This document shows positions 44,399 to 61,138 of a stretch of DNA of 61,138 bases, one piece after another. How positions within the stretch are numbered: position 1 is the stretch's first letter; every line of letters begins with the position of its first letter. The notes under the pieces were generated by a model. That model worked only from the letters and a program-made list of their open reading frames with translations. It had not been told where the DNA came from and did no database searches. The DNA comes from a bacterium (GTDB taxonomy: Bacteria; NPL-UPA2; JAUVJM01), in NCBI GenBank assembly GCA_030606215.1, contig JAUWGW010000008.1, positions 1 to 61,138 on the forward strand, written 5' to 3'. The position numbers and the translations under genes were made by a program.

Positions 44399-45541
44399 AT
44401 GGTAACTGAGGTGATAATGCCAAAACTCGGGCAGACAATGGAAGAGGGAAAAATTGAAAGATGGTTGAAGAAAGAAGGAGATAGAGTGGAAAAAGGTGAA
44501 ATTCTGCTTGAGATTACGACTGATAAAGCAACCTTAGAAGTGGAAGCCTACGGTTCAGGCATGTTAAGGAAAATAATTGTTCCGGAAGGGCAGACAGTGC
44601 CTGTGACGACAGTTATCGGCTATATTGCAGAAGAAGGTGAAGAGCTGCCTGCAGCCACCAAAGAAATCCCCGCGCAGAGAGAAACAGAATCACCTGCACA
44701 AGCAACTGTGAGAACTGAAACCCGAGCTCAATATACGGCAAAACCAGAGAAGGAAACTAAAATCAAAGCATCCCCGCTCGCAAAAAAAATTGCTGCGGAA
44801 AAAGGAATTGATTTGAGTAAGGTTAAGGGAACAGGTCCCGGGGGAAGAATTACAAAAGAAGATGTTCTTTCCTCTACTCCGTCTACAGAGAAGTCAGCAG
44901 AACTCAGCCCGATGAGGAAAGCAATTGCGGAAAGAATGTCAAAAAGCAAAAGGGAAATCCCTCATTACTACCTGATAACTGAAGTTGACATGACCGAGGT
45001 CTCAAAGAAACGGGAGAATTTATCAGGAATTTCCTACACGCACATTATAATAAAGGCTGTTGCAGAGGCACTTATTGAGTTCCCGCAGCTGAATGCAAGC
45101 TGGCAGGAAAACGGAATTAAAGCTTTTCACAATATTGACATCGGAATTGCTGTTGCTCTTGAAGATGGAATAATTACCCCCGTTCTTCGGAACGTGGATA
45201 AAAAGACACTTCAGGAAATATCTTCCGAGGTTAATCGCCTTGCGGAAAAGACAAAGGAAAAGAAACTTACTATAGAAGAATATTCCGGGGCGACTTTTAC
45301 CATTTCAAATCTCGGTATGTTTGGAATTGAAAGTTTCCTCCCGATAATAAACCCACCTCAGGCCTGCATACTCGGTATTGGGGCAATAAAGGAAAAGTGT
45401 GTGGCAATTAGTGGAAAAGTGGAAATAAGACCCGTGATGAAAATAGCTCTTTCAGCAGACCACAGAGTTGTTGATGGAATTACCACAGCCCAGTTCATGA
45501 AGAAATTAACCGATATCCTTGAAAACCCGGACTTTATATAA
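44399..45541 (+). CDS. pdhC: Dihydrolipoamide acyltransferase (E2)
   Basis: 380 residues. Lipoyl domain (1-78) with Lys in EITTDKATLEVE, Ala/Pro/Glu/Thr linker (about 80-125), E3-binding domain (KASPLAKKIAAEKGIDLSKVKGTGPGGRITKEDV), and the acyltransferase with ALSADHRVVDG (catalytic His near 358). Compact one-lipoyl E2. The end overlaps the lptD start by 23 nt. Confidence 0.92.
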   Translation: MVTEVIMPKLGQTMEEGKIERWLKKEGDRVEKGEILLEITTDKATLEVEAYGSGMLRKIIVPEGQTVPVTTVIGYIAEEGEELPAATKEIPAQRETESPAQATVRTETRAQYTAKPEKETKIKASPLAKKIAAEKGIDLSKVKGTGPGGRITKEDVLSSTPSTEKSAELSPMRKAIAERMSKSKREIPHYYLITEVDMTEVSKKRENLSGISYTHIIIKAVAEALIEFPQLNASWQENGIKAFHNIDIGIAVALEDGIITPVLRNVDKKTLQEISSEVNRLAEKTKEKKLTIEEYSGATFTISNLGMFGIESFLPIINPPQACILGIGAIKEKCVAISGKVEIRPVMKIALSADHRVVDGITTAQFMKKLTDILENPDFI

Positions 45542-47579
45542 TTCTATACTTTCCCTCCTGATATTTTTGTCGCTTCTGTCCTCCTCAGAAGCTTCCGAAA
45601 AAATCCCTTTAAATTTCGAAGCTGATAAACTGGACTATTACGATGAGAAAGAAATAATTGAAGGGCGGGGGAATGTTGAGCTGAGTTATAAAGGAATAAA
45701 TCTTAAAGCTGATTATGTATGGTTTGACCTCAAAACACATGACCTTCTTGCTAAAGGGAATGTTGTGTTAAGTGAAAAATCACAAGAATTCCACGCAGAA
45801 GAGCTCAAGTATAACCTGAAAGACGAACTTATGGAAGCCCGGAAGATTACTTCTTTTCAGAAGCCATGGTATATGAAAGGGAAAAAACTCAAAAAAGTTT
45901 CTCCTGATGAATACTTACTTGAGGGAGGAGAATTTACAACCTGTAACCTGTCACCGCCACATTACAGGTTCACAGCAAAACGAATCAAAGTCTATCCTGA
46001 GATTCGCCTGTGGGCATACAATACTTTTTTTTATGCAGGGGAAATCCCTCTGATGTATCTTCCAGTTTATAGAAGGTCATTGAAAGATGTTCCGTCGGGA
46101 TTTGTCATGCAGCCGGGCTATAGCTCAGAGAGAGGAGCTTTTATCCTCTCACACTACAACTGGTATCTTTCAGAAAAATTCAACGGCAGATGGTATCTCG
46201 ACTTCTTCAACAAAGCAGGATGGGGCAAAGGTTTTGATGTCCACTTTGCCTCAGGGACGGGTTCAGGTTATCTGTATGGTTACCACATTGATGAGAGAGA
46301 AAGCCCTACGGAGGAACCACCGAGAGAAAGATGGAAACTGCATTTCCGTCATCACCAGAAAATAACAGAAGACATAAGAGAAATAACAAGACTTGATAAG
46401 TTAAGCGATGAGAATTTCAGAAGAGACTATTTGAATGATGAAGTTCTTAAATTCCTGAGCCGTTCCGAGCTTGAAAAACATCGTCCAGAAGGTTCTCTCT
46501 CCATAACAATGAATAAGCCAGGTTATACCTCAAGCATCTATGTCAGGAAACGCGTAAATAGTTTCTTAGAAGTTACAGAAAACCTGCCGCGCATCTCTTT
46601 TGATTTAGTGGAGAGAGGTATCCCTGCAACTTCCCTTTATTACGACTTTGATACCGACTTTACATATCTCCACGTTTCACCAGCAGGTGAAGAAGTAATG
46701 CAGATGAAAGTTTGCCCACAACTGTCACATAAAACTTCCCTCGGCTGGCTGAGAGCAAAACCGACCATCGGAGCTGATGGATTCTGGTATGGTGAAAATG
46801 AGTTAGGTGAGAAAAATATCTTCCAGGGAACCTATGAAGCTAACTGTGCGCTGACTTTAGCAAACGGTATCTGGAAAATATTTGATACTCCCGGATGGAA
46901 AAAAATAAAAAAAGTGCGTCATCTCACTTTGCCCATAGTTACATACTGCTACACGCCAGAGCCAACTATAGAGAAAGAACATATATACAATTTCTGCGAC
47001 TGTATAGGCAATGAGGAGGAGCTCATAAAGGTAGAATTGCGCAACAGTATAGAAGGTAAAACAGAATCAGGGGAAAAATTTCGGATGGTTGACCTGAATC
47101 TACGCAGCTTCTATGACAGGTTGGACGAAGGAGAAGAGTGGCAGAATGTTTACGCTGATTTAAGAATTAACTCCATGCGCAATATTTCCTGGTGGACCCT
47201 CGCAAATTATAATCCACACACAGAAAAATTTGAATCGCTTGACAGCGATTTTAAAATTGTGAAAGAGAAATGGAGAACATCAATCGGAACCAGATTCTAC
47301 GAACCCGGCGGGGAGAAAAACACATTTGATTTAACGGGAAAAATTGCGGGGAATTTAGGAACCAAATGGAAAATTGATTTGCAGGGTCGCTACGATTTAA
47401 ATGGAGAAAATTTTAAAGTTCGCCGCGTGACTCTGCACCGCGACCTGCACTGCTGGACTGCACAACTTTTCTGGCAGAGTGAAAGAAAGGATGAGGAGGA
47501 AGAAACAAGAATATTCCTCGCTTTCAAGATAAAGGGAGTTGGAGCAGAAATAAAGACTCCTTTCATTGACACATTTTAA
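45519..47579 (+). CDS. lptD: LPS-assembly protein LptD/OstA-like outer-membrane protein
   Basis: 686 residues from TTG 45519, the only start that leaves a signal peptide (SILSLLIFLSLLSSSEAS). OstA-like N-terminal beta-jellyroll (about 27-140; NFEADKLDYYDEKEIIEGRGNVEL) and a C-terminal beta-barrel region. It would receive lipopolysaccharide or a related glycolipid at the outer membrane, the main evidence for a Gram-negative envelope here. Slightly short for the family. The start overlapping pdhC is unusual; a longer upstream start is not possible in this frame. Confidence 0.82.
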   Translation: MKTRTLYNSILSLLIFLSLLSSSEASEKIPLNFEADKLDYYDEKEIIEGRGNVELSYKGINLKADYVWFDLKTHDLLAKGNVVLSEKSQEFHAEELKYNLKDELMEARKITSFQKPWYMKGKKLKKVSPDEYLLEGGEFTTCNLSPPHYRFTAKRIKVYPEIRLWAYNTFFYAGEIPLMYLPVYRRSLKDVPSGFVMQPGYSSERGAFILSHYNWYLSEKFNGRWYLDFFNKAGWGKGFDVHFASGTGSGYLYGYHIDERESPTEEPPRERWKLHFRHHQKITEDIREITRLDKLSDENFRRDYLNDEVLKFLSRSELEKHRPEGSLSITMNKPGYTSSIYVRKRVNSFLEVTENLPRISFDLVERGIPATSLYYDFDTDFTYLHVSPAGEEVMQMKVCPQLSHKTSLGWLRAKPTIGADGFWYGENELGEKNIFQGTYEANCALTLANGIWKIFDTPGWKKIKKVRHLTLPIVTYCYTPEPTIEKEHIYNFCDCIGNEEELIKVELRNSIEGKTESGEKFRMVDLNLRSFYDRLDEGEEWQNVYADLRINSMRNISWWTLANYNPHTEKFESLDSDFKIVKEKWRTSIGTRFYEPGGEKNTFDLTGKIAGNLGTKWKIDLQGRYDLNGENFKVRRVTLHRDLHCWTAQLFWQSERKDEEEETRIFLAFKIKGVGAEIKTPFIDTF

Positions 47580-47591
47580 CCTGCAGAGGAG

Positions 47592-47864
47592 TTGAAATTA
47601 GGGGTTGGATGTGCTATCATTCTACTGGTGATTTCTATGGAAAATCAGGGTTCTCCAATTCAGCGCTTTTTTTGCTATATTTTAGATAAGATTTTTCACT
47701 GGATAATGGTTCTTCTCTATGGAGCTCGCCCTTCAGAGACAAGAGCGCAGAAGTTAAGCCGGTGGGTAGTTGTGCTGGTCGTCATTATTGGTATTGTGCT
47801 TCTTTACTCAGTGGTGAAGACAATTTTCAGACCATCAGTTCCTTTAAGAGTAAGGACAGGTTAA
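47592..47864 (+). CDS. Small membrane protein
   Basis: 90 residues from TTG 47592, or about 75 from ATG 47637 (MENQGSPIQRFFCYIL). It has an amphipathic N-terminal segment with RFFCYILDKIFHWIMVLLYG and a transmembrane helix VVVLVVIIGIVLLYSVV (about 60-77). No family recognised. It lies in the 12-nt wake of lptD and 30 nt before the TPR gene, so it may take part in envelope assembly. Confidence 0.6.
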   Translation: MKLGVGCAIILLVISMENQGSPIQRFFCYILDKIFHWIMVLLYGARPSETRAQKLSRWVVVLVVIIGIVLLYSVVKTIFRPSVPLRVRTG

Positions 47865-47894
47865 GTTAGAATGACTCCGTTAAGATGAGGGGTA

Positions 47895-49814
47895 ATGAGA
47901 ATGCCTGAGAAGGAAGATGAAAAGAAAAAAAGAAGAGTTGAAAAATTATACAACAAAGCTCTATTCTCCATAGAATCAGGGCAGTATGATTATGCAATTA
48001 CGCTTCTGAAAAGCGCACTTTCAATCGACCCGAATTTTATAAAAGCTCAGGAAGGAATCAAACTTGCAAAGACAAGAGAATTACAGAAGTCATCTTTATC
48101 TGCCCAGAAGATAAAAAGTATATTTTTTATGATTCAGGCTCTCTCCTGCGAACATTTCAAAAAATATGAGAGAGCACTGGATAAATATGAAAGCCTCTTT
48201 GCTCTTATGCGTCCGCCCTTACAAATGCTGCCACATCTCGGTGATATGTATGCGGCTAATGGAATGATAGAGAATGCCGCTACAGCTTACAGGGCAGTGT
48301 TACAGGCTGATGGCAACAATATCTACGCGCTAAGAAAACTCGGCAAAATATACCTTGACCAGGGAAAAATGGCTGAAGCCAGACCGATTTATGACCATCT
48401 TTCCTCACTTGCGCCCAGCGATGGGGCAGTAATCAAGGAAGTAAAAGATGCCTATGCACTGATGACCATTGACAAAGGACAATGGCAAGAAGAAGTATCA
48501 TTCAGAAAAAAGGTAATGGAGGAAACTCCTGCTGAAGAAACTGCAAGAAGAGAAACGGAACTTGTCTCTGCAGAATCCCTGAGTGAGCAGGTAAGATTGC
48601 TTAGAAAAACCCTTGAAAAGGAGCCAAATAATACAGGTGCGCGTAAGGAGCTTGCAAAATTGCTGCTTGAGGGAAGGAATGTGGATGAAGCCATCTCTGA
48701 ATACAGAAAAATAGCAGACCTCGACCCGCAGGATATTGATACTCACAAGACACTTGCTGCTTTATACCGGGAGAAGGGAGATGTTAGGAAAGCAGTCAAA
48801 GAGTATGAGAAATTGCTCTCATCTTTCCCTGAAAAACTGGATGTTCTTAATACACTTGCCACTCTTTACTATGAGCAGGACGCACCTGATAAGGCAATTG
48901 AAACCTACAAAAAAATAACTCAACTTACCCCTGATGACCCGGATGCCCATGAATCACTGGGCAAGCTTTATGAACACACCAGGTATTTTGATAAAGCAAT
49001 ACAGGAATATGAAAAGGTAGTTAATCTTGCTCCGGAGAGAATAAAAGTTGAAGAGAGCATCGGCAACCTCTATCTCAGAGGCGGAAAAACTACAAAAGCA
49101 ATTGAGAAATTTGAGAAAGTAACAGGGTTTGACAAAACAAACACAAGTTTGCGAAAACTCTTAGGAGACCTCTATCTCAGGGAAAATCAGCTTGATAAAG
49201 CAAGGGAAATCTTTCAGGAAATCCTAAGAATTACCGCTGATGATGAGTCTGCAAAAGTCAAGTTACGGGAAATTGAGGCCGTGAAACTTGACAGGAAAAT
49301 AGAAGAAATAGATGCGCAAATCATAGAGTATGAGAAACTGGTCAGCAAAGAACCGGATAATGCGGAGGCAAAGGGGAAACTTGAGAAGGCAAAACTTGAA
49401 AGGCTTGAGCTATGTATCCTGGCTCTTGAAGATAGAGCTAAGTCAGAGCCTGCTAATCTGACACTACACTATCAGCTCGGGCTCGCTTACAGGGAAAAGG
49501 GTCACACTGATAAGGCTCTAAAAGAATTGCAACTGGCTGTAAATGATGAGGAGAGAGGTATGGAGAGCCTTCATCTGATAGGGTTATGTTTTGAAGAGAA
49601 GAATATGCTGGATATCGCGGCAAAACAGCTTGAGAAAGCGGCAGGCAAACTTCCAAATATGAACGATACGAGGAAAGCAATTCTATATGACCTTGGCAGA
49701 GTATATGAAAAAATGGATGAGCACCAGAAAGCCCTGAGTAAATACAAAGAGATTTACGAAGTGGATATCAGCTACAGAGATGTTTCCAGAAAAATAGAAG
49801 AAGCTTACAAATAA
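47895..49814 (+). CDS. Tetratricopeptide-repeat protein
   Basis: 639 residues, about ten or more TPR units, e.g. PNFIKAQEGIKLA, ARPIYDHLSSLAPSDGAV, AISEYRKIADLDPQDIDTHK, AIETYKKITQLTPDDPDAHE and KALKELQLAVNDEE. No signal peptide. A cytoplasmic scaffold; TPR proteins downstream of envelope genes often serve in assembly or motility, but the partner is unknown. It converges on priA with no gap. Confidence 0.85.
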   Translation: MRMPEKEDEKKKRRVEKLYNKALFSIESGQYDYAITLLKSALSIDPNFIKAQEGIKLAKTRELQKSSLSAQKIKSIFFMIQALSCEHFKKYERALDKYESLFALMRPPLQMLPHLGDMYAANGMIENAATAYRAVLQADGNNIYALRKLGKIYLDQGKMAEARPIYDHLSSLAPSDGAVIKEVKDAYALMTIDKGQWQEEVSFRKKVMEETPAEETARRETELVSAESLSEQVRLLRKTLEKEPNNTGARKELAKLLLEGRNVDEAISEYRKIADLDPQDIDTHKTLAALYREKGDVRKAVKEYEKLLSSFPEKLDVLNTLATLYYEQDAPDKAIETYKKITQLTPDDPDAHESLGKLYEHTRYFDKAIQEYEKVVNLAPERIKVEESIGNLYLRGGKTTKAIEKFEKVTGFDKTNTSLRKLLGDLYLRENQLDKAREIFQEILRITADDESAKVKLREIEAVKLDRKIEEIDAQIIEYEKLVSKEPDNAEAKGKLEKAKLERLELCILALEDRAKSEPANLTLHYQLGLAYREKGHTDKALKELQLAVNDEERGMESLHLIGLCFEEKNMLDIAAKQLEKAAGKLPNMNDTRKAILYDLGRVYEKMDEHQKALSKYKEIYEVDISYRDVSRKIEEAYK

Positions 49815-51842
49815 CTACAGCATTCCTACCGGGTCAACATCAATAATTATATTCACCCCCTTCAACTTTTGATTCCCTTCTATTTCCTCCCGCAGTGAAG
49901 TTAAAATTTTATGTATGTGGCCTACCCTGCCCGCTTTTAAGGTCAGCTGCCAGCGATACTTCCTCTTTACTCTTGAAAGCGGTGCAGGAGCAGGTCCGAG
50001 AATATCAACTTGTCTGCCGATAGGTACGGCTTTCCCCTTCGCCACCAGCCTAGTAATAATATCCTTCAAAACCAATGCTGAAGATTCAACCCTTTCCTGT
50101 TTCAACCCGCTTACAGTCAGAGTAGCAAAATGAGTAAATGGTGGGTAGAGAAGTTCCCGTCGGAATTCCAGCTCCTGTTTGTAGAAACCTTCATAATCAT
50201 GGCTCTTCGAGGCAATTATTGCATAGTGTTCAGGGTTATATGTTTGAATAATAACTCTCCCCGGCATAGAACCTCTGCCTGCTCTCCCGGCAACCTGGGT
50301 GAGAAGCTGGAATGTGCGTTCTGATGAACGAAAATCCGGGAAATTGAGAGAAGTATCAGCCGAGATTACCCCGACAAGAGTAACTTCCGGGAAATCCAAA
50401 CCCTTCGCAATCATCTGAGTTCCAAGCAATATGTCAATTTCCTTTTTTCTGAATGCAGTAAACATTCTCATATGGGAATCTCTCTTTGTAGTTGTATCAG
50501 AATCCATCCGCTGAATGCGCGCAGAAGGAAAAAGTCTCTCAATTTTTCTTTCCACCTGCTGAGTTCCAATACCAAGACGGCGAATGTAACCGCTATGACA
50601 TCGGGGACAGATTTTGGGTGGTATCTCTTCCCGGTTACAATAATGGCAGATGAGCTTCTCAGAACTTGCGTGATAAGTAAGCGATACGCTGCAATTCTTG
50701 CACCTTAAAACATGCCCGCAGCGTCTGCATAGAGAAAAATTAGAGAATCCGCGCCTGTTCAAGAAGAGGATAACCTGTTCCCTTCTCTCAAGTGTTTTCT
50801 CAAGTTCCTGCCTGAGGTAGTGTGAAAGAATATTAGACTTTTCCTCTCTCATATCCACAATCTCAACCTCAGGAAGTGGTCTATTATCTATCCTCTTGCG
50901 GAGTTTCACCAACCTGTAACAACCTCCCTCAGCATTGTAGTAAGATTCCAGCGATGGAGTAGCACCTGCAAGCAGGATAGGTGCCTTATAGAGTTTCGCT
51001 CGCATAATAGCCACTTCACGGGTGTGATACCTGGGAGATTCCATCTGCTTATACGAATTCTCATGCTCTTCATCTACTATGACCAACCCTAAATTCCTGA
51101 CAGGAGCAAAAATAGCAGAACGAGGTCCAATCACAATGCTTGCTTCCCCGCTCCTCACCCTTTCCCATGTCTGATAACGCTGGCTACCGGTGAGCTGACT
51201 GTGGAGAATAGCTACTTTTTCTCCAAACCTTGCAGAAAACCTCTCTTTTGTCTGTGGAGTAAGTGAAATTTCAGGAACCAGCACAATAGCCTGCTTCCCT
51301 CTCTCCAAAACATATGCAATTGCCTGAAGATAAATTTCGGTCTTGCCGCTCCCGGTTATCCCATGGAGCAAAAAAACCGAACTCTTGTTTTCCTCTATAG
51401 ACTCATTCAATAATTTCAAAACTTTCTTCTGCTCCAAATTCAGTTTAAGAGGGAAAGTTGCTTCAAACTTTTCCTCACTTTCCAGAATTGGTCTTGGTGG
51501 TCTTACCCTAACTCTTCGGACAGCAGAAGGCAGCGCCACCTTCAAAACTTCTCCCCATGGGCAGAAATAGTATTCAGAAAGCCATTTTGTCAGCCTCAAC
51601 ATCTTCGCATCAAAACTCGGGGAAACATCAAGAACAGATTCAATCGGTTTTACCTGAGACACACCTGCTTCTTCACTGAATCCAACAATATATCCTAAAG
51701 TTTTCTTCTGTCTGAAAGGAACAAGAACCCTTTTCCCCAACGCAACCTTATGCTGGATATCCTCCGGAATTGAATAGTGGAAAAGTTTGTCTATCGCAAA
51801 CCCAACTGCCACAACAGCATATTTTTTACTTTTGCTCTGCAT
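49815..51842 (-). CDS. priA: Primosomal protein N' (replication restart helicase PriA)
   Basis: 675 residues from ATG 51842 (MQSKSKKYAVVAVGFAIDKLF); TTG 51872 is an alternative that overlaps the kinase gene. N-terminal DNA-binding domain, helicase with Walker A LHGITGSGKTEIYL and DEEH box VIVDEEHENSYK, zinc ribbons CRRCGHVLRCKNCSVSLTYH and CHYCNREEIPPKICPRC, and the restart motif GTQMIAKGLDFP. It reloads replisomes at stalled forks. It is the last gene of the FHA/kinase/priA string. Confidence 0.94.
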   Translation of the reverse strand: MQSKSKKYAVVAVGFAIDKLFHYSIPEDIQHKVALGKRVLVPFRQKKTLGYIVGFSEEAGVSQVKPIESVLDVSPSFDAKMLRLTKWLSEYYFCPWGEVLKVALPSAVRRVRVRPPRPILESEEKFEATFPLKLNLEQKKVLKLLNESIEENKSSVFLLHGITGSGKTEIYLQAIAYVLERGKQAIVLVPEISLTPQTKERFSARFGEKVAILHSQLTGSQRYQTWERVRSGEASIVIGPRSAIFAPVRNLGLVIVDEEHENSYKQMESPRYHTREVAIMRAKLYKAPILLAGATPSLESYYNAEGGCYRLVKLRKRIDNRPLPEVEIVDMREEKSNILSHYLRQELEKTLERREQVILFLNRRGFSNFSLCRRCGHVLRCKNCSVSLTYHASSEKLICHYCNREEIPPKICPRCHSGYIRRLGIGTQQVERKIERLFPSARIQRMDSDTTTKRDSHMRMFTAFRKKEIDILLGTQMIAKGLDFPEVTLVGVISADTSLNFPDFRSSERTFQLLTQVAGRAGRGSMPGRVIIQTYNPEHYAIIASKSHDYEGFYKQELEFRRELLYPPFTHFATLTVSGLKQERVESSALVLKDIITRLVAKGKAVPIGRQVDILGPAPAPLSRVKRKYRWQLTLKAGRVGHIHKILTSLREEIEGNQKLKGVNIIIDVDPVGML

Positions 51843-51850
51843 TGCTCGCA

Positions 51851-53881
51851 CTAGTCCCTTACCCGCCAGCAACAGCGGAAACCGACATTCCTCCTCTTTT
51901 CTTCCGCCCCCAGACTTGCCCGAAGCGGCACATATCTTTGAACCGGGACCTCATTCCAGCTTGCTCCACGGATAATTCGCCAGAGGGATGACCCATCAGA
52001 AGAACTTCCAACCCACTCCCAGACATTACCAACCATATCATAAAGTCCATACGGGCTTATTCCTGACGGGTAATTACCAACAGGCGCAGAACTTAAATTC
52101 AACCCGACATTACAGTGCTGATTATCAAACTCATTGCCCCATGGATATTTCCTGCCATCAACCCCGAAAGCTGCTTTTTCCCATTCCTCCTCTGTTGGAA
52201 GTTCCAACCCTGCCCACTCAGCGTATGAACAAGCATCAAACCAGCTCGCTTCAGTCACAGGATGATTCTCATATCCTGATGGGAATCTATGCACAGGCTT
52301 AAACTTTTTATAAGATGCATTTGTAACCTCATACCTCTCAATGTAATAGGCAGGAAGATAGACTTTTTTCTCCTTGCCGGTTTCATCTCTCCTGACAAAT
52401 TCGCCGGCAGGTATAAAAACAAATCCCATCTCACGGATTTTTTCATCCACCTGCCGCCTCTCATCTGATAAGAGAGAGAAATGTCTTAGTGCCTTCCCAA
52501 TTCTCCCCTGCTCTGCTGAGATGAGCGCCATTCTGTAATGCTTGGTTTCTTCCTGCCTTATTTTTTTGAAGCCGCTCCTCGCACGGTCTGTAAACTCTGT
52601 ATCCAGCAAAAGGACGTATTTCTCTTTCGCTTCCTTATATTTTCCCTGGTTGAGAAGACTATCAGCTTCCTGGAGGATTGTGTTTAACTTCCGAATATGC
52701 CTTGAGAAAGCTTCTTCTCCCATCTTCAAGTCAAGTTTGATTAACTCATTTTTTGCTTTTCTTCCCCACTCAGTGTCAGCATATTTTTCTGAGACGAACC
52801 CAAACTTAGCTTTAGCCTTATTGTATTTCCCGTCCTGCAAGAGTGTCTCCCCCTCCTGAAAATACAGCTGTGCCGGAACTTTCACTGCCTCCATGTGACT
52901 ATCAAATCCTGCGACTATCTCCAATTTTTCATCTGCTGTATTCCCTGACTGCTCCTGCCCGCCCGGCAGGCGGGGGTAGGTATAGTGGGATAAATGTGAC
53001 ACACCCTGCGAACTTTCCAGGGATATGCTCAATGTCATGAATAGAGCCATGACCGGAAGTCCTGCTTTTCTCAAAAACTCTTTTTGAGTTCTATTAGCCT
53101 CAGTTAGAGCTCTGACGAAAGCCCGCGCTGAAGTATGTCTATGGGAAGACATTTTACTCATTGCTTTCAAAAGCACAGATTCAAGGGCTTTAGGAGAATC
53201 CCTCATCGGTATAGGTAATTCATACGCCTGCTTATAGACTACCCCAATAGAAGTCTCAGATTCAAAAGGAAGCCTGCCTTCCAACATCTCATAGGTGATT
53301 ATTCCAAGAGAGTATATATCAGAAGACACTTTTACCTCTTTTCCTAAGACCTGTTCAGGTGACATGTAACCCGGTGTCCCAAAAATTTGCCCACGCGCAG
53401 TTAGACGCAATCCTTCAAGAGCAAGAGCTAATCCAAAATCAGCCACTTTTACCCGATTTGTTCTCGAGCAGATAAGGATGTTCTTAGGTTTGACATCCCG
53501 GTGAATAATCCCGCATTCATGGGCATAGTCAAGAGCAGAGGCAATCTGGCTGACTATCTCCAGAACCTTTTCAAACTGAAACTTCCCCACTTCTCTCATA
53601 ACCTGCTTTAGTGTCTTCCCATCCACATATTCCATTACAAGGTAATAGGTATTGCCTTCCTCCCCTATATCATAGATGCGGACTATGTTCGGATGGCTCA
53701 ATTTAGCGGCGGATTCAGCTTCCCTGCGAAAACGCCTGATAAACTGTGGAAGTGCGCTAAGTTCCGCCGCCAGAACCTTGATCGCAACAGGACGCTCAAG
53801 CGCAGGGTCTATACCTTTATAGACGGTCCCCATCCCACCCCGCCCGATTTCTTCAAGGATTTTGTACTTACCTATCTTCAT
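51851..53881 (-). CDS. Ser/Thr kinase fused to sulfatase-modifying-factor domain
   Basis: 676 residues. Kinase (1-265): Gly-loop IGRGGMGTVYKG, VAIKVLA, HRDVKPKN, ADFGLALAL and SPEQVLG; then a membrane helix (about 270-290, AGLPVMALFMTLSISLESS), a helical tetratricopeptide-like region (335-480) and a C-terminal formylglycine-generating-enzyme-like domain (485-676; FIPAGEFVRRDET, VTEASWFDACSYAEWAG, GLYDMVGNVWEWVGSS, IIRGASWNE). It thus senses or binds something outside while phosphorylating inside. It overlaps the PEGA gene by 4 nt (ATGA). Confidence 0.88.
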   Translation of the reverse strand: MKIGKYKILEEIGRGGMGTVYKGIDPALERPVAIKVLAAELSALPQFIRRFRREAESAAKLSHPNIVRIYDIGEEGNTYYLVMEYVDGKTLKQVMREVGKFQFEKVLEIVSQIASALDYAHECGIIHRDVKPKNILICSRTNRVKVADFGLALALEGLRLTARGQIFGTPGYMSPEQVLGKEVKVSSDIYSLGIITYEMLEGRLPFESETSIGVVYKQAYELPIPMRDSPKALESVLLKAMSKMSSHRHTSARAFVRALTEANRTQKEFLRKAGLPVMALFMTLSISLESSQGVSHLSHYTYPRLPGGQEQSGNTADEKLEIVAGFDSHMEAVKVPAQLYFQEGETLLQDGKYNKAKAKFGFVSEKYADTEWGRKAKNELIKLDLKMGEEAFSRHIRKLNTILQEADSLLNQGKYKEAKEKYVLLLDTEFTDRARSGFKKIRQEETKHYRMALISAEQGRIGKALRHFSLLSDERRQVDEKIREMGFVFIPAGEFVRRDETGKEKKVYLPAYYIERYEVTNASYKKFKPVHRFPSGYENHPVTEASWFDACSYAEWAGLELPTEEEWEKAAFGVDGRKYPWGNEFDNQHCNVGLNLSSAPVGNYPSGISPYGLYDMVGNVWEWVGSSSDGSSLWRIIRGASWNEVPVQRYVPLRASLGAEEKRRNVGFRCCWRVRD

Positions 53882-55545
53882 AGATTTTCTATGGATTCCA
53901 CCTCGGAAACCTTGAGAGTTATGAGACCTCCTTCAACTCTAATGACCATTTCCTCGCCCTTCCTGCTTATTATCTCACCCTCAATCTCGCCGCCGGTTCG
54001 CAGATGTAAACGCACAGTCGGCTTCCATTTCTTCACAGTCTCTCTTAGATTTATGTCCACTATGGTTGTTTTTCCCGCAGTTATCTTAAATCTTTCCTCA
54101 GCCACCTTATACCCGGATTTTACAACCTGAAGTTGATGTTCCCCTTCAATCAGGTTCCCAACAGACAACGAATCCTTCACCTCACCTTTCTCCTCCCCAT
54201 CCACATAAACTCTGGCTCCACCAGGAGAGCAGACCATTAGAAGGAAGCCTGTTATTTTCCTCATCTTGACAGATACAAGTGTTCTCACCTGATTTACATC
54301 CAGAACCACTGTCTTCTCTACAATACCGCAGCCTTCCTTTTCAACCCTGAGCCTGTGCTCACCTGAATAAAGCCCTCCCAAATTCAGGGGAGTCTTCCCC
54401 TTGAAGTCACCATCAAGGAAAACACTTGCGCCCTGTGGTTCTGATTGGACCATCAAAGACAGGAGCTTTTCTTCAAGCTCCACCTTAAGAGAAAAACGCT
54501 GTTTCTTCCTCAGGAATAGGTTCTTCTTTAAATCATAGTATCCATCTTTCCTCAACAACAGTTCATAGCGGCCTGGTTTCAGTTGATACAAAGTTTTTGG
54601 AGTAAGCCCTTTATAAATACCGTTAACATAAATTTCTGCCGCTTCAGGCACCGACTTAACTGAGATAGAACCGTGCAAACTCATAAGTTCCACTCTTAGG
54701 GTCACAGGGACTCCTCCTTCAACCTTAAGAACTCTCTCCTCAGTTGAATAGTCATCCAGCATCAGCTTCACACTGTATTCGCCGAGCGGAAGATTTTTGA
54801 GCAGGAGAGGTGTTCTGCCCTTTAGCTCCTCTCCTATATAAACCAGCGCACCCTCTGGAAGTGTAAGAACCCTCGCAAGACTAACCTCCCTGACAAGATT
54901 GAGCTGGAGAGACAATCCTCCCGCCCCGAGCATAAGTTCCTGGCGAAAATCTTTAAAACCCCTCTTTCTTCCCACAACCAGATGTTTCCCCCTGCGCAAG
55001 TTCCTGACAGCAGCAGGAGCCTCACCACAATATTTCCCATCAATATAAATGGAAACCCCGGATGGTTCAGACTTTATGTTCAGAGAAGAGCCCCGGGAAA
55101 GAATCGTAATAACCAAAATCACAAGAAAAATGGAAATTATAGGAATCGCTACCCACTTTTTGCCTACCCTGCGGATACTCTGTTTCCTCTGTATAATAGT
55201 ATCCCGCCTTCGGGAAATTCTGGTAACCTGACCTGTTTCACCGAGTTTCTCCCACTTGAGGAGCGAGTCAAGACTTTCACCCTCACAATATTCAGTCGCA
55301 ACGTAATGAATACCATTTTCCTCTCCAACATCGTATATCTGGACAATGTTTGGGTAGTTCAGTTTTGCGATCGTCTTGGCTTCTTTCCTGAACCGTTCAA
55401 CGAATTCGCGGTTTGAAGAGAACTCAGTCTTTAACACCCTCAACGCAACAACTCTTCCAAGCGAGACCTGGATAGCTTTGTAAATAGTCGTTGTCGCACC
55501 ATCACCAATTTTTTCAACAACTTTGTATTTGCCTATTACCTTCAT
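53878..55545 (-). CDS. N-lobe-only kinase remnant with membrane helix and five PEGA domains
   Basis: 555 residues. Residues 1-110 are a Hanks kinase N-lobe: IGDGATTTIYKA, VALRVLK (catalytic Lys replaced by Arg) and PNIVQIYDVGEENGIHY; then the frame goes straight to a membrane helix (about 131-151) with no HRD, DFG or APE. Five PEGA repeats follow, each around a core such as PSGVSIYIDGKYCGEAP, PEGALVYIGEELKGRTP, PEAAEIYVNGIYKGLTP, PQGASVFLDGDFKGKTP and GGARVYVDGEEKG. It is an inactive kinase-like cytoplasmic anchor with an external PEGA stalk. It overlaps the FHA gene by 4 nt. Confidence 0.85.
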   Translation of the reverse strand: MKVIGKYKVVEKIGDGATTTIYKAIQVSLGRVVALRVLKTEFSSNREFVERFRKEAKTIAKLNYPNIVQIYDVGEENGIHYVATEYCEGESLDSLLKWEKLGETGQVTRISRRRDTIIQRKQSIRRVGKKWVAIPIISIFLVILVITILSRGSSLNIKSEPSGVSIYIDGKYCGEAPAAVRNLRRGKHLVVGRKRGFKDFRQELMLGAGGLSLQLNLVREVSLARVLTLPEGALVYIGEELKGRTPLLLKNLPLGEYSVKLMLDDYSTEERVLKVEGGVPVTLRVELMSLHGSISVKSVPEAAEIYVNGIYKGLTPKTLYQLKPGRYELLLRKDGYYDLKKNLFLRKKQRFSLKVELEEKLLSLMVQSEPQGASVFLDGDFKGKTPLNLGGLYSGEHRLRVEKEGCGIVEKTVVLDVNQVRTLVSVKMRKITGFLLMVCSPGGARVYVDGEEKGEVKDSLSVGNLIEGEHQLQVVKSGYKVAEERFKITAGKTTIVDINLRETVKKWKPTVRLHLRTGGEIEGEIISRKGEEMVIRVEGGLITLKVSEVESIENL

Positions 55546-56735
55546 CTCTTTCTAACCTTTTCAAGACGCCTCATAGCATATTTATGCCTCTCATCAGTTT
55601 TATCTGGAACTCTTGCAAGTATCCCCTCAAGATTTGCTCTCGCATCATCCCATTCCAAAAGTCTCATTGCCCTCTCAGCTTGAAAACGCAGCTTGTTAAA
55701 TTTATCAGTCAAATCCTCCTGAGACCTGTATAGATACTCTTCCACAGTTGGAAGGAAAGATGGTTTCGGTTCTACTGTCTCAAGATACCAGAACGTTTTT
55801 CTAAATGCACATATTGAATTGAAAAGATTATCACATCTCCTTTCCCTCTCGCTATAAAACAATTTACCCCGTTCAAATGCTTTTTCAGCTTTTCCTACAA
55901 GTTCTTCCCTGGATAATGCGAGAGACGGAAAATTGAATTTTTTTGCTGCCAGAAATTCCAATTCTTCTTTAAAAGATGCTATTCCTTCAGGCAAATCTTT
56001 GGAAAAAGAGACTTTTCTCTCGAGAGAATCCAGTTTCGCACTGATTGTCAGCAAATTCGCTCCTTCAGAACTGCTGTGATTGACAACCGAAATCTTAAAC
56101 AAACTGCTATTCATAATCTTCTTCCGCAGCTCATCTATCTCCTCACCGCTCAATTTAGCTTCCCTGTAAAGATGTCTTCCTCTCCCTAAATCATCAAAAT
56201 AGAAATGGAGTGAGCCGGCGGATATACTGATTTGCGAACGGCTTAGTTTCCCGAAACCGCCGCTCTCCTCAACCATATCTACTTCAAAAGTTGTTGTATC
56301 CAGCCAAACTTTTCCCGGCTGCCTAACATGTCTTGAAAATACAAAAACTGCACCAAGCACCAAGATAACAATGCAAATCGTATTGAAATTTCTGGACTTC
56401 AAGCTAAGTCTCGGGTGAACCTTTTGAGCGAACCCCGTTTGAAATCCCAACGGGGCAAGGATTAAAGTGGTATCTCCAACACTGACCTTAGCCCCTGGCA
56501 GGAGTTCTGCTCTACTAACCTGCCTGCCATTGAGCCATGTTCCATTGGAACTTTCCTTATCAATTATGAAGAATTTTCCCTCTTTATACCGGATTTCACA
56601 GTGGCGAGCGGAAGCTGCAGGGTCTTGCAGGACAACATCGTTATCCGGAGAACGCCCTATGGAAAGAGTTTGTTTGCAAACTTCAAACCTTTTTCTCCTC
56701 CCTCCATAAAGAATAGTGAGTTCAGCCTTCCACAT
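55542..56735 (-). CDS. FHA-domain membrane protein
   Basis: 397 residues. N-terminal FHA (1-97): TLSIGRSPDNDVVL, ASARHCEI and SSNGTWLNGRQVSR carry the phosphothreonine-binding Arg, Ser/His and Asn. A membrane helix (about 123-139, ICIVILVLGAVFVFSRH) follows, then an external helical/beta region of unknown fold ending in Lys/Arg-rich RLEKVRKR. The FHA is the natural reader of phosphorylation by the kinase at 51.85 kb. Its gene lies 3 nt after the HNH gene and overlaps the PEGA gene. Confidence 0.85.
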   Translation of the reverse strand: MWKAELTILYGGRRKRFEVCKQTLSIGRSPDNDVVLQDPAASARHCEIRYKEGKFFIIDKESSNGTWLNGRQVSRAELLPGAKVSVGDTTLILAPLGFQTGFAQKVHPRLSLKSRNFNTICIVILVLGAVFVFSRHVRQPGKVWLDTTTFEVDMVEESGGFGKLSRSQISISAGSLHFYFDDLGRGRHLYREAKLSGEEIDELRKKIMNSSLFKISVVNHSSSEGANLLTISAKLDSLERKVSFSKDLPEGIASFKEELEFLAAKKFNFPSLALSREELVGKAEKAFERGKLFYSERERRCDNLFNSICAFRKTFWYLETVEPKPSFLPTVEEYLYRSQEDLTDKFNKLRFQAERAMRLLEWDDARANLEGILARVPDKTDERHKYAMRRLEKVRKR

Positions 56736-56738
56736 TCA

Positions 56739-57347
56739 TTATCTCATTTCCTCACCAAGCTCTACATTCCAGTATGCAAGATCAAGGAAATGCTTCCAGC
56801 TCTCATGCATGTGGGAACTGAATCTGACGAGGATAAACCTTTGCCACCTCGGTTTACGAGGACGTCGGATGAACTTCATACCTACTTCACTCAGCAACCT
56901 GCCACCCTTCCGAGTATTACAGGAAAGACATGAGCAGACAACATTATCCCATGTGGTTTTCCCTCCACGCGCCAGTGGCACAACATGATCCAGGTTCAAA
57001 TCCTTTGTATCAAACTTCTTCCCGCAGTATTGGCATCTGTTTCCATCTCTTTCGTAGATATTCTTGCGCGTGAACTTAACTTCTCGTGCAGGCAGCCGGT
57101 CGTAGAGGAGAAGAAGAATGACATGCGGCACTCTTACTTTAAAGGAAATTGTTCTTACGAACTCTTCATCAGGTGCATTCTGGGAGAAATCTTTCCAATC
57201 ATCAAAAGTGAAAGTGGTAAAACTTCCCCCATTCTCTGTTACTACCTGAGCATGCCCCTGGTAAAGAAGACAGAAAGCTCTCTTTGTAGAACAGATATTG
57301 ACTGCCTGCCATAACCTGTTCAGAACTAAAACACTTGTATTCAGCAT
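56739..57347 (-). CDS. HNH endonuclease family protein
   Basis: 202 residues. C-terminal HNH: RCQYCGKKF, LDHVVPLARGGKTTWDNVV and CLSCNTRKGGR, with metal-binding His and zinc cysteines. The N-terminal part (VLVLNRLWQAVNICSTKRAFCLLYQG) is the conserved companion of this family, common in anaerobic and planctomycete-like bacteria. Role unknown; frequently chromosomal and stable, not clearly mobile. Confidence 0.9.
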   Translation of the reverse strand: MLNTSVLVLNRLWQAVNICSTKRAFCLLYQGHAQVVTENGGSFTTFTFDDWKDFSQNAPDEEFVRTISFKVRVPHVILLLLYDRLPAREVKFTRKNIYERDGNRCQYCGKKFDTKDLNLDHVVPLARGGKTTWDNVVCSCLSCNTRKGGRLLSEVGMKFIRRPRKPRWQRFILVRFSSHMHESWKHFLDLAYWNVELGEEMR

Positions 57348-57391
57348 ATCCTTATATATATACCAGAATTCTCCTTAAAAGCAAGGAGAAA

Positions 57392-57928
57392 TTACAATAC
57401 AACATAGGTCTGGGAGTGTGGATTCGCAAGTAATCCTTTACCCATACTCTTCGCAACGGTAATCTCTTCTGCTATCTTCTTAGCGCTAATCCTATCTTCT
57501 GCACTTATGATAAGTTTCCATAGCAGACCTCTCTTCACACCTTTGACCTTATCCCCATATCCAAGAGTATTTCTAAGTGTATCCAGCGTAACGCGTGCCT
57601 TTTCATCCTCCCTGTAACCTACCAACACTCTGATTACATATGGCACTTTTTTCTCTGGGACATCCGCTTCTTCCCCCACTACTCTCAGCGTATATGTGTG
57701 TTTATTTGGATTCACTATTGTCTTCGTAACAGTTACAAACTCTACGCCAAGTTTTTGCGCCTCTTCAGCATTTTCAACCTCCACTTCTATCAACCAGTAC
57801 TCTTCCCTCCGGGCATCAAGCAATGTCCTTCCATACCCCATATCCTTCTGAAGGGTATTCTTTGCAGTCAGGGCTATCGTATCAACTGTCTTCAGACGAA
57901 CGAAAAGTTCTATGCTATACACACTCAA
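57392..57928 (-). CDS. purS: Tandem PurS-type protein (FGAM synthase small subunit)
   Basis: About 178 residues from TTG 57928 (GTG 57922 possible); the longer frame to 57979 would overlap purQ by 35 nt. Two PurS domains in one chain: SIELFVRLKTVDTIALTAKNTL to NPNKHTYTLRVV, and YVIRVLVGYREDEKARVTLDTLRNTLG to NPHSQTYVVL. PurS normally is about 80 residues and dimerises to bridge PurL and PurQ; a fused dimer would fill the same role. Directly after purQ. PurL is not in the window. Confidence 0.85.
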   Translation of the reverse strand: MSVYSIELFVRLKTVDTIALTAKNTLQKDMGYGRTLLDARREEYWLIEVEVENAEEAQKLGVEFVTVTKTIVNPNKHTYTLRVVGEEADVPEKKVPYVIRVLVGYREDEKARVTLDTLRNTLGYGDKVKGVKRGLLWKLIISAEDRISAKKIAEEITVAKSMGKGLLANPHSQTYVVL

Positions 57929-57944
57929 TTCGAATAACCCCCAC

Positions 57945-58757
57945 TCATAAACCCTCCAGATATGCTCGCATTGATTCAAAGATCTTCCTTCCAGGACCCG
58001 GATTCAACATCTTTTGAGAATTTCCATATGCGGCTTGCTTTGCACCCGCATATTCGTCCCCGAGATTATCAGGAATCTGCCTGAGCCATGCTGCTCTCTC
58101 AGGATGCGGCATAAGGGCAAAGACATTTCCAGCAGGATTACAGATTCCAGCAATATTGTCAAAAGAGCCATTTGGATTAACAGGAAAACTTTCTTCAATC
58201 TTTCCATCGGGAGTGCAGTACCTCAACACTATCTGGCCATTAGCTTCCAATTTCTCAATTAAACCTTTCTTTTCTGTTACAAATCTCCCTTCGGCGTGGG
58301 CAACCGGAATCGGCAGTACCTCCCCCTCCTCAAAAAGACAACTAAATGCGCACTTCCCCTTCCCTGTTGTATGAATTACATGAACCCAATTGCAGTAATA
58401 ACCTGACCTGCCTGTATTCGGAGCAAGAGCCATCTCAAGTTCTCCAGGTCTAACCCCTGGAATTATTCCACTTTCAATGAGAACCTGAGCACCATTACAT
58501 ATACCCATAACAGGTTTCCCAACCTCTGCTCCTTTAAATATGGTTTTCATAATACCCTTCCTGGCAGCTATTGCTCCTGCGCGAACTCTGTCCTGATAGG
58601 AAAATCCTCCGGGGATAATATAGCCGTCATATTCAGGCAGTGATGATGGGTCTTTATTCCAGCGGAAAATTTCCGCAGACATACCCGATGCCCTGACAGC
58701 CCGCGCTGTCTCATATTCGCAGTTGCTTCCGGGATATTGAATAATCGCAATTTTCAC
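57945..58757 (-). CDS. purQ: Phosphoribosylformylglycinamidine synthase glutaminase subunit
   Basis: 270 residues from GTG 58757 (GGAAGAG 6 nt upstream; start as in the family, VKIAIIQYPGSNCEYETARA). Class I glutamine amidotransferase: GGFSYQDRVRAGAIAA, nucleophile Cys in VMGICNGAQVLIE, and His-Glu in ALMPHPERA. It supplies ammonia to PurL in step 4 of purine synthesis. Slightly longer than usual (about 230 residues), with an additional C-terminal stretch. Confidence 0.92.
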   Translation of the reverse strand: MKIAIIQYPGSNCEYETARAVRASGMSAEIFRWNKDPSSLPEYDGYIIPGGFSYQDRVRAGAIAARKGIMKTIFKGAEVGKPVMGICNGAQVLIESGIIPGVRPGELEMALAPNTGRSGYYCNWVHVIHTTGKGKCAFSCLFEEGEVLPIPVAHAEGRFVTEKKGLIEKLEANGQIVLRYCTPDGKIEESFPVNPNGSFDNIAGICNPAGNVFALMPHPERAAWLRQIPDNLGDEYAGAKQAAYGNSQKMLNPGPGRKIFESMRAYLEGL

Positions 58758-58784
58758 AATAAACTCTTCCAGTCCCTCCACCAC

Positions 58785-59161
58785 TTCTATACTGGAATTT
58801 TAACAGGCAAGAAGACGAAAATCAAGAAAAATGAAATTATGGAGGACTATTTTGAGCCTTGGGAAATAAGGCTCTGAAGGTGGGGTTTTTCGGCACTTTC
58901 AGAAGGGAGTTTAGCTACCCCTCGGCAGATGTAAATTTCTGGGCGTTCTGGTCACATAGTGGACATTTCTGGATTTCACTAACCATATCACCTTGAAAGA
59001 GTAATTAACCTGCTTTTTACATTACCGTCGGTATTTTAGTTCTCAACTTGTTTATTGACGGTATTTTGCCCTAAAAGTTTGTGACAAGAGTAGACATAAG
59101 TATGCAGGAGTCTTTCAAAAGTGGATACATTTTGGATACACATTTCGTTGAGATAGAACTA
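58785..59161. other. Gene-free intergenic stretch with dispersed repeat
   Basis: 377 bp without a credible gene. Contains the second copy of the dispersed repeat (58854-58919) and two near-copies of CGGTATTTT (about 59030 and 59062). No promoter could be assigned with confidence. Confidence 0.5.
58854..58919. repeat. Dispersed two-module intergenic repeat, copy 2
   Basis: GAGCCTT (58854-58860), loop GGGAAAT and AAGGCTC (58868-58874) form a 7-bp stem, followed by TGAAGGTGGGGTTTTT and module B (58893-58919). The same modules occur, rearranged, at 10806-10927. Confidence 0.6.
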
Positions 59162-59446
59162 CTAAATAACACGTTTTTCTTTAAGTATTGCAATGTAATC
59201 ATTTTTTGAGAGGGCTTTTTGGGAGGCAAGCAAGAACTGCTCGAAACTGAGAAATATCTGCCTCAACATGCTTCGGAGAATCGGCCCACTTATGTCATGT
59301 TTTGGACCGTGAGAGATTTTTGTCCACACGACCACTTGGTCTTTATGGTAAAAATAATAATGTATGTCAGGATGGCTGGGGTCCGACACAAACCCCAAAT
59401 GTACCAATGTTCTTGCCGCCTTGTTTGATTGGATTACAAAGGCCAT
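59162..59446 (-). CDS. HicA-like small toxin candidate
   Basis: 94 residues. Motif HYYFYHKDQVVVWTKISHG followed by ILRSMLRQIFLS and a C-terminal KNDYIAILKEK, resembling the archaeal/bacterial HicA-like family (double-stranded RNA-binding fold; a catalytic His is in ISHG). The start overlaps the stop of the next gene by 1 nt (TGATG), a toxin-antitoxin-like arrangement. Toxin role is inferred. Confidence 0.6.
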   Translation of the reverse strand: MAFVIQSNKAARTLVHLGFVSDPSHPDIHYYFYHKDQVVVWTKISHGPKHDISGPILRSMLRQIFLSFEQFLLASQKALSKNDYIAILKEKRVI

Positions 59447-59793
59447 CAGCCAAGGAGCTGTTCGTAGATCTTTAGGTGGGCATTCAATCGCTGACTTAAT
59501 TCATCTTTGTGCCTTTTCAGGAACTTGTAGTCTGACCTTAGGGCTTGCTGAAACTTGCGCTTGGCCTCATCCAAATCCGCTCCAGTAGCAAAAGTTTCCA
59601 GCGGAGGTCGAGCAATAAACACAATCTCATCGTGAATTTCATATTCAACCTCTATTTGCCCATTTGGCACAGGGATTATCATATTCCCGAATGTTATCCC
59701 TTTGGGAGACTTTTCAACTTTTTGCTCCAAATCCAGATAGTTCGTTAAGTCACTTTTATTATCAAGAGACCTGTCAAGCTGCAAAACTCCCAT
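59446..59793 (-). CDS. Putative antitoxin partner of the HicA-like protein
   Basis: 115 residues. No clear HTH. The middle part (GQIEVEYEIHDEIVFIARPPLETFATGADLDEAKRKF) could be a small beta-alpha domain with a C-terminal helix, similar in style to HicB partners, but I cannot assign the family. Coupled to the toxin candidate by overlap and 6 nt from the DUF3467 gene. Confidence 0.5.
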   Translation of the reverse strand: MGVLQLDRSLDNKSDLTNYLDLEQKVEKSPKGITFGNMIIPVPNGQIEVEYEIHDEIVFIARPPLETFATGADLDEAKRKFQQALRSDYKFLKRHKDELSQRLNAHLKIYEQLLG

Positions 59794-59799
59794 TTTAGA

Positions 59800-60126
59800 T
59801 TACCCCCTTTTCCCCTTTTCAAAAAACCAGTCTAAGTCTGTGTCCCCTGGCGCTCCTGGCGGCCAAGGAATCTTCCCTATCTTGTTCTCGTATTTCTTAA
59901 TATTCTCGTAAAGAGCTTTTAGCAATGCCTTTGCGTGTTCCGGACTCATTTTCACACCTGCCAACATCTGAATACGATTTGGATCTTCAAAATGGCGCTC
60001 ACCGAAATCAATCACGAATTGCTCACCCGTGTGACGAATAAGAGCAAAATTTACGTAGGCACGTGATGAAACTACCTTTGGTTTGCCCTTGCCTTTGTCG
60101 TTCTTCTGCTCCCGCTCTTCAGCCAT
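59800..60126 (-). CDS. DUF3467 domain protein
   Basis: 108 residues; core matches DUF3467: RAYVNFALIRHTGEQFVIDFGE, VKMSPEHAKALLKALYENIKKYENKIGKI. Often found near small regulatory or toxin-antitoxin genes; function unknown. The N-terminus is charged (EEREQKNDKGKGK). First gene of the cluster 60126-59162. Confidence 0.82.
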   Translation of the reverse strand: MAEEREQKNDKGKGKPKVVSSRAYVNFALIRHTGEQFVIDFGERHFEDPNRIQMLAGVKMSPEHAKALLKALYENIKKYENKIGKIPWPPGAPGDTDLDWFFEKGKRG

Positions 60127-60346
60127 GTTCCCCTCCTTAATAATAGTATCATATTTTTACATCACTATGCAAGTTTGTCAAGGGCAATCTTACTGGACAA
60201 TCTTACTGCGAAGTTCCTTCTCCACCCTACAACCGCCCAAAAGAACTTTTCAATTTTCGGAATTACGGGAGCTTGGTTCAAAAGCCTTCTATGATCAAAG
60301 GTCGAGGTATTTCACCACTTCCCGTTCAGAAAAATAAGAGCTATTT

Positions 60347-60631
60347 TTATTTAACACTCCTGAGAAATTTCTTAACATCATCATGACTTCCTACAAGCAT
60401 GAAAGCTACCTCACTTTTCCTATAGTGAAATAAAATCCGCTCCTTGATAGTGCTTCTAATCTCCCAATAATTCCCACGCAATCGGGTTAATCCCATCCCT
60501 TTGGGAAAACGCTGCCCTTTTGAAAGCAGCCATATCAGGTGTTTTGCCAAAGATTTTATTTGCTGCTGCTTCTGGATGGGAAAACTCTTTATTGTCCTTT
60601 CAAAAGAGGGCTTAAAATCATAAGTGATCAT
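60347..60631 (-). CDS. RelE/ParE-type toxin (YafQ-like)
   Basis: 94 residues: FKPSFERTIKSFPIQKQQQIKSLAKHLIWLL, GLTRLRGNYWEIRSTIKERILFHYRKSEVAFMLVGSHDDVKKFL. RelE fold with basic residues and a late His/Lys as in YafQ/RelE interferases. Its start overlaps the antitoxin gene by 4 nt (ATGA). Confidence 0.8.
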   Translation of the reverse strand: MITYDFKPSFERTIKSFPIQKQQQIKSLAKHLIWLLSKGQRFPKGMGLTRLRGNYWEIRSTIKERILFHYRKSEVAFMLVGSHDDVKKFLRSVK

Positions 60632-60948
60632 AAATTGTCTATATGCTCTACTGCCTCATCCGCGCTGGTGAATCCGATCCCTTTTTCCTTGCGCAGTTTT
60701 TCTATTCTCTCCCACTCCTTAGGATCATAAGGATCTTCTGCAATTACCTTTAATGGTTTCAAAAGAACTCCTTCCCTCTGCGGTTCAAAGGCAACAATTG
60801 TCCCTTCACTGATTTTACATAGTTCTCTTACAGCATGAGGAACTGTCAATTGTCCACGGGAAGAGATTATAGCCAAACTCTTTGCAGCAGCCTTCAGCAA
60901 CTGTTCTATCCCCTCATCTTTTTTGGCATGTCTTACTTTCATGGGCAC
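60628..60948 (-). CDS. AbrB/SpoVT-type antitoxin
   Basis: 106 residues. AbrB hairpin KSLAIISSRGQLTVPHAVRELCKISEGTIVAFEP; the tail (YDPKEWERIEKLRKEKGIGFTSADEAVEHI) wraps the toxin. AbrB-type antitoxins with RelE-type toxins are a mixed pairing worth noting. Ribosome-binding GGAGG upstream of ATG 60948. Confidence 0.85.
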   Translation of the reverse strand: MPMKVRHAKKDEGIEQLLKAAAKSLAIISSRGQLTVPHAVRELCKISEGTIVAFEPQREGVLLKPLKVIAEDPYDPKEWERIEKLRKEKGIGFTSADEAVEHIDNL

Positions 60949-60970
60949 CTCCGCTTATTTTCTGTAAATA

Positions 60971-61000
60971 AGAATAGCATATTTACCATAGGTTTGTCAA
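60971..61000 (-). promoter_or_regulatory. Promoter of the AbrB/RelE module
   Basis: Reverse strand TTGACA (61000-60995), 18-bp spacer, TATTCT (60976-60971), 23 nt upstream of the antitoxin ATG. Confidence 0.65.
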
Positions 61001-61098
61001 GCCTTTTTCGCCACTTTTTTTACAATCTTTCTAGCCATCCCGTCGCACAGCCTTATTTTTTTATATTATATATAGTGCTAACATTCTTTGTTTTTTAC

Positions 61099-61127
61099 TT
61101 GACAAGATATTCGGTATGTGTTATATT
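61099..61127 (+). promoter_or_regulatory. Strong promoter reading out of the window
   Basis: TTGACA (61099-61104), 17-bp spacer, TATATT (61122-61127). No gene downstream is visible before the window ends; a forward gene presumably begins just beyond 61138. Confidence 0.65.
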
Positions 61128-61138
61128 TTCTGTAGTGC

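Follow-up and report, generated by a model that had tools for sequence, protein, structure and literature searches.

Gene order and domains of the locus

The window analysed here, a stretch of 61,138 nucleotides, contains three open reading frames on the minus strand (hereafter the trio), encoding an FHA protein of 397 aa, a protein of 555 aa that has only the N-lobe of a kinase (the half-kinase) and a complete kinase of 676 aa with an FGE/SUMF1-like domain (kinase-FGE). The genes of this region are, in order of transcription:

58784-57945, minus strand: purQ-like gene, first in transcription order
57979-57392, minus strand: purS-like gene, after the purQ-like gene
56739..57347, minus strand: HNH endonuclease-family gene, a neighbour only, with 3 bases between it and the FHA gene
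55542..56735, minus strand: FHA protein, 397 aa, with cytoplasmic FHA domain, membrane helix and external part (ORF and Pfam)
53878..55545, minus strand: half-kinase, 555 aa, with N-lobe, basic linker, membrane helix, five PEGA domains and a small C-terminal tail
51851..53881, minus strand: kinase-FGE protein, 676 aa (ORF and Pfam)
49815..51842, minus strand: priA, a neighbour only, with an ATG start backed by homologs

The original prediction of three genes with two overlaps agrees with the minus-strand reading frames, and the FHA/half-kinase and half-kinase/kinase junctions are both ATGA overlaps of 4 bases, a tight gene order which suggests joint translation. Regarding the junction with priA, an overlap of 22 bases with the kinase-FGE gene requires a TTG start, while homologous PriA proteins start close to the ATG at 51842, in which case 8 bases separate the two genes. 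Scans of the region for promoters and terminators were no richer than those of shuffled sequences (15 vs. 13.5; 8 vs. 7.7).

The domains and hydrophobic segments of the three proteins, with Kyte-Doolittle values (KD), are the following:

56475..56663, minus strand: FHA domain (aa 25-87), with the GR, S..RH and NGT positions aligned with GarA kept
56325..56381, minus strand: membrane helix of the FHA protein (aa 119-137), KD 2.23
55237..55527, minus strand: kinase N-lobe only, half-kinase (Pkinase profile 1-96 of 263; PknB match Z 16.5)
55096..55152, minus strand: membrane helix of the half-kinase (aa 132-150), KD 2.96
54919..55086, minus strand: PEGA domain 1
54682..54873, minus strand: PEGA domain 2
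54469..54672, minus strand: PEGA domain 3
54283..54459, minus strand: PEGA domain 4
54037..54228, minus strand: PEGA domain 5
53111..53866, minus strand: complete Ser/Thr kinase domain of kinase-FGE with VAIK, HRD and DFG
53018..53074, minus strand: weak hydrophobic segment of kinase-FGE (aa 270-288), a possible membrane helix, KD 1.33
51869..52426, minus strand: FGE/SUMF1-like domain (aa 486-671), closest in the PDB to SUMF2

The FHA protein was recognised by Pfam (FHA, 1.2e-19) and has the membrane helix originally ascribed to it (19-residue Kyte-Doolittle maximum 2.23), followed by approximately 260 external residues. The closest PDB relative of its FHA domain is GarA, a known partner of PknB. 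The GR, S..RH and NGT positions, which we take to be the conserved phospho-threonine-site positions of FHA domains, are kept, and by this sequence criterion the domain is a candidate phospho-threonine binder. The AF2 model of the FHA protein alone, built without relatives, had a mean pLDDT of 42, too low to inform on the fold of the external part.

The kinase-FGE protein has the features of a PknB-type Ser/Thr kinase, namely a bilobal domain with the VAIK Lys, HRD and DFG (PknB match 2e-58), and a weak TPR/BamD-like match was also detected. The expectation that all three proteins span the membrane holds for the FHA protein and the half-kinase (2.23 and 2.96, respectively), whereas the maximum of kinase-FGE (1.33, 19-residue Kyte-Doolittle) is no better than that of a soluble-looking kinase elsewhere in the window (1.30; 36493-37356). 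The full kinase and the FGE-like domain foreseen for this protein are present, the former intact and the latter with an FGE-sulfatase Pfam match, while with so weak a helix it is only probable that the FGE-like domain is external and the kinase membrane-spanning. In catalytic FGE the active-site cysteine pair lies within GGS..C....C. The C-terminal stretch of kinase-FGE, RGASWNEVPVQRYVPLRA, contains no Cys at the site of the catalytic pair and the best PDB match is SUMF2, which is non-catalytic, so that the FGE-like domain is probably not enzymatic. As a candidate variable domain targeted by a diversity-generating retroelement it was rejected, since no direct or inverted repeat of at least 40 bases was found in 44000-61138. 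A GC-rich palindrome, TGCCCGCCCGGCAGGCGGG, lies at 52956-52974 within the kinase-FGE coding sequence, right after the weak hydrophobic segment; it is single in the window, and among 173 loci its core was found only in 5, all covering the same place. The window also encodes a second FGE-like protein (10975-11841), which is stand-alone and has a signal-like N-terminus.

Fold, residues and origin of the half-kinase

Pfam detected only the N-lobe of Pkinase (profile positions 1-96 of 263) and five PEGA domains (3.3e-69) in the half-kinase, confirming its description as an N-lobe-only kinase with five PEGA repeats, and the absence of HRD and DFG and the replacement of the catalytic Lys of VAIK by Arg are likewise read directly in the sequence. 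Its basic juxtamembrane linker contains Thr amid many Arg and Lys. An AF2 model of the N-lobe, based on 15 relatives, had a pLDDT of about 95 and a continuous helix from residue 110 to 154 across the membrane segment; the best PDB match of the model is PknB (Z 16.5, rmsd 1.1, 92 residues), and the N-lobe is 48% identical to that of the neighbouring kinase. Judged as a PknB-type kinase, the half-kinase thus has the predicted N-lobe fold of PknB and no C-lobe with HRD and DFG; as the C-lobe is absent it also falls outside the bacterial pseudokinase families ActPs, GLW, CP1, DYD, and DLHK, which have the whole fold. We infer that it has no catalytic activity. A search with three C-lobes (tblastn) gave a best E of 0.048 in any frame of 53882-56800, compared with 2.7e-34 for the N-lobe control, and this lack of a convincing C-lobe match in any frame argues against a local frameshift of an otherwise complete kinase.

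Among the 77 N-lobe frames in the fetched loci, 66 are accompanied by HRD-like and DFG-like motifs, four are the half-kinase or pieces of it, six have a C-lobe with variant motifs and one ends at a contig edge. Before the alignment of 67 N-lobes was counted, 11 of the 77 frames, half-kinase copies among them, had been dropped because the two regex motifs were not both present; in this alignment the half-kinase alone has Arg for the catalytic Lys. It deviates from this alignment (n = 67) at six of the 16 positions conserved at 90% or more, namely Gly-loop positions 17, 18, and 21, Lys36 (Arg), His64 (Tyr) and the gatekeeper Met84 (Thr); the change at position 21 is conservative, while those at Gly-loop positions 17 and 18, the beta-3 Lys 36, the HPN His 64 and the gatekeeper 84 are non-conservative. 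It agrees with the consensus at 30 of the 41 positions conserved at 60% or more, a value which 13 of the 66 other N-lobes equal or fall below. Regarding the dimer positions, Leu33 and Asp76 of PknB are the residues altered in PDB entries that bear L33D and D76A in their titles, and their equivalents are present in the half-kinase, kinase-FGE and a paralog on another contig (C13), while the soluble kinase of the window has Thr and Ser. Since Leu and Asp are each found in 74% of the aligned N-lobes, their retention is weak, suggestive evidence.

The C13 paralog (G000:C13:61077) is an intact kinase-PEGA protein of the same genome, and it and the half-kinase are the only two proteins with PEGA in that genome. 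In the N-lobe tree (67 sequences, 109 columns, bootstrap unsettled) the half-kinase is sister to this paralog (96/81), and in the same 109-column tree the pair is sister to a kinase of G224, a genome of another phylum (96/88). The paralog resembles the half-kinase in its N-lobe, in a similar membrane segment (KKWVA) and in having PEGA, but differs in that its kinase domain is complete, it has one PEGA domain and it lies apart from FHA genes; the gene before it is presumably PorV-like. The juxtamembrane similarity of the two proteins scored 38, which was reached in 2 of 2,000 shuffles, and one of 56 kinase juxtamembrane stretches (C13 included) scored 41, above 38, and several scored 35-37. This similarity supports a common origin only weakly, the tree being the better support. 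Given the sister position to an intact kinase-PEGA paralog, the most likely history of the half-kinase is that a kinase-PEGA gene was duplicated and one copy lost its C-lobe, while its PEGA domains multiplied or were retained.

Searches with the whole half-kinase covered 60 relatives, nine chosen genomes and five of the phylum of G224, and searches with its first 234 residues covered 386 genomes, these sets overlapping; among the matches listed for the 60, the 386, the nine and the five genomes, none besides the query combined N-lobe, linker and PEGA. Similarly, 39 stretches of the contig collection fitted a search pattern and none encoded a relative of the half-kinase. Kinases beside FHA genes were found elsewhere. 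In G224 (contig C32, L166:6304-11666) a kinase of the clade of the half-kinase follows two FHA genes, and in G002, of the same phylum as the window (contig C15, L134:6587-9626), the gene after a kinase encodes an FHA-GAF-histidine kinase protein. Both clusters are like the trio in that a kinase adjoins FHA, and both differ from it in having no half-kinase and in having pilus-assembly-like neighbours, which we take to be CpaF/Tad-like genes in the former and PilM/N/O-like genes in the latter.

The trio and priA in related genomes

The phylum was sampled with nine genomes including that of the window, the other eight including a single member of its family and no member of its genus. The FHA protein had matches in four of these eight, covering the FHA domain and its edge only; kinase-FGE had a kinase match in four of eight, which never included the FGE part; and the half-kinase was not among the matches listed for any of the eight. 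In this thin sample, therefore, the neighbourhood survey called for by the original prediction does not recover the trio as a conserved unit, an outcome which that prediction had itself named as refuting it.

PriA is present in seven of the eight other phylum genomes and the trio lies upstream of priA in none of the seven (the contig of G006 shows one upstream gene only). In the nearest relative, G001 of the same family, the same slot has other contents, with the order HNH gene, ABC-transporter genes, TPR gene and priA. The HNH gene of G001 (L122:326-622) matches residues 102-200 only and is a frame of 104 residues at the contig start, either partial or broken. A convergent TPR gene adjoins priA in five of the seven relatives, as it does in the genome of the window. 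At 13 of 38 PriA loci of the contig collection, all Bacillota by title, a kinase occurs 3-6 kb downstream of priA, with an order and neighbours different from those of the window; a kinase near priA is thus not unheard of. The proposed coupling of the trio to priA is reduced to adjacency, as the trio is upstream in 0/7 genomes. The further suggestion that envelope signals reach DNA replication through priA is unsupported, since the genes upstream of priA differ among relatives, the trio is absent from the eight phylum genomes and in G001 ABC-transporter genes occupy the slot. The adjacency is read as convenience or chance.

Known systems and a candidate function

The MviN/PknB/FhaA system of Mycobacterium tuberculosis resembles the trio in that an active kinase of the PknB type is accompanied by a membrane pseudokinase and by an FHA protein; MviN, the pseudokinase, is phosphorylated by PknB and bound by the FHA domain of FhaA, and the pseudokinase domain of MviN forms back-to-back dimers through its N-lobe (PMC12599244). 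That domain has deletions but is a whole domain, whereas the half-kinase is an N-lobe alone, and MviN is a peptidoglycan-synthesis membrane protein in whose description PEGA is not mentioned (PMC12599244); the genes of that system do not form a cluster like the trio. Regarding kinase-FGE, the sulfatase-modifying-factor domain ranks third in abundance among the accessory domains of Planctomycetota STKs and is mostly periplasmic in single-span kinases (PMC11032199). These share an external SUMF1-like domain with kinase-FGE; a half-kinase partner is not mentioned in the passages on them (PMC11032199). Periplasmic SUMF1-like kinases are thus common in Planctomycetota, and relatives have FHA genes next to kinases. 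The unusual element of the trio is the lobe-less kinase, and the cluster is genuine, odd and of a single lineage. No description of the trio set or of an N-lobe-only bacterial kinase was found in titles and abstract openings of the open-licence literature, and the terms 'C-lobe' and 'truncat' are absent from the main text of a bacterial pseudokinase review. A defence system was considered and rejected, the PADLOC matches being to generic kinase and HNH domains, with none for the FHA protein.

By analogy, the trio may be a membrane phospho-signalling module in which the half-kinase pairs with the kinase, PEGA tunes the kinase and FHA reads the product, a tentative reading to which we give somewhat less than even confidence. 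The N-lobe of the half-kinase would bind that of the complete kinase back to back, a contact proposed to be allosteric in PknB, and binding of a putative ligand by the five external PEGA domains, or their clustering, would tune the complete kinase through the half-kinase, the FGE-like domain serving as a second, non-catalytic external binding domain. The complete kinase would phosphorylate itself and threonines in the basic linker of the half-kinase, and the FHA protein would bind phospho-threonines of the linker or the kinase and carry the output via its own external part. The interaction of half-kinase and kinase is suggested by gene neighbourhood alone. The docking or allosteric role originally assigned to the half-kinase is plausible and is consistent with its paralog origin, the changes in its ATP pocket and the kept N-lobe fold, while the dimer-face residues, common in the family, add little. 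A search of the genome for PP2C (PF13672) gave no match, so the module has no visible reset step. It is rather doubtful, but conceivable, that the half-kinase is an N-lobe-only receptor subunit, a PEGA sensor kinase stripped of its whole catalytic lobe whose N-lobe was kept as an allosteric plug-in face, through which one complete kinase would be driven in trans by the ectodomain of another protein, with an FHA reader encoded beside it.

Two other explanations leave the N-lobe without a regulatory task. The half-kinase could be a scaffold in the manner of MviN, whose linker is phosphorylated by the kinase and docked by FHA while PEGA anchors the complex at the envelope; the MviN/PknB/FhaA triad operates in this way (PMC12599244), the phospho-binding positions of the FHA domain are kept and the linker holds Thr among many Arg and Lys, but a predicted intact N-lobe fold with 30 of 41 consensus positions matched would be needless in a passive scaffold, and we consider this unlikely. 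A relic, in which a duplicated kinase-PEGA gene without its C-lobe persists in the operon and is of use at most through its PEGA ectodomain, is quite unlikely: the sister relationship to an intact paralog, the presence in one genome only among the matches listed and the lost ATP-pocket residues accord with it, but the frame of 555 codons is intact, with overlapping genes on both sides and five intact PEGA domains, and the N-lobe positions beyond the ATP pocket are mostly retained.

An assembly error or a frameshift of a complete kinase is very improbable, even though the genome is a draft of 34 contigs, as a C-lobe appears in no frame, the trio is internal to a contig of 61 kb with even GC and the position of priA beside a convergent TPR gene agrees with five of seven relatives. 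Control of PriA by the trio, coupling envelope to replication, is extremely improbable. It would suit the same-strand position of priA 8 bases away and the basic juxtamembrane segment of the half-kinase, a feature shared with YabT, a membrane kinase of Bacillus subtilis with a basic DNA-binding juxtamembrane segment, which phosphorylates RecA and SsbA (PMC6333020); the absence of the trio upstream of priA in all seven other phylum genomes argues against it, and the kinases 3-6 kb downstream of priA in Bacillota (13/38 loci) represent a different arrangement.

Returning to the signalling module, should the half-kinase prove to activate or restrain the adjacent kinase, a natural deletion would have split the allosteric face of a PknB-type kinase from catalysis. 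Such a protein would allow the back-to-back dimer model of bacterial kinase activation to be tested directly and would exemplify a pseudokinase that evolved by losing an entire lobe, not single motifs.

The third, soluble-looking kinase of the window (36493-37356) overlaps accA on its upstream side and a PilZ-domain gene on its downstream side, and the tree of 67 N-lobes places it with kinases of G001, G005, and G007.
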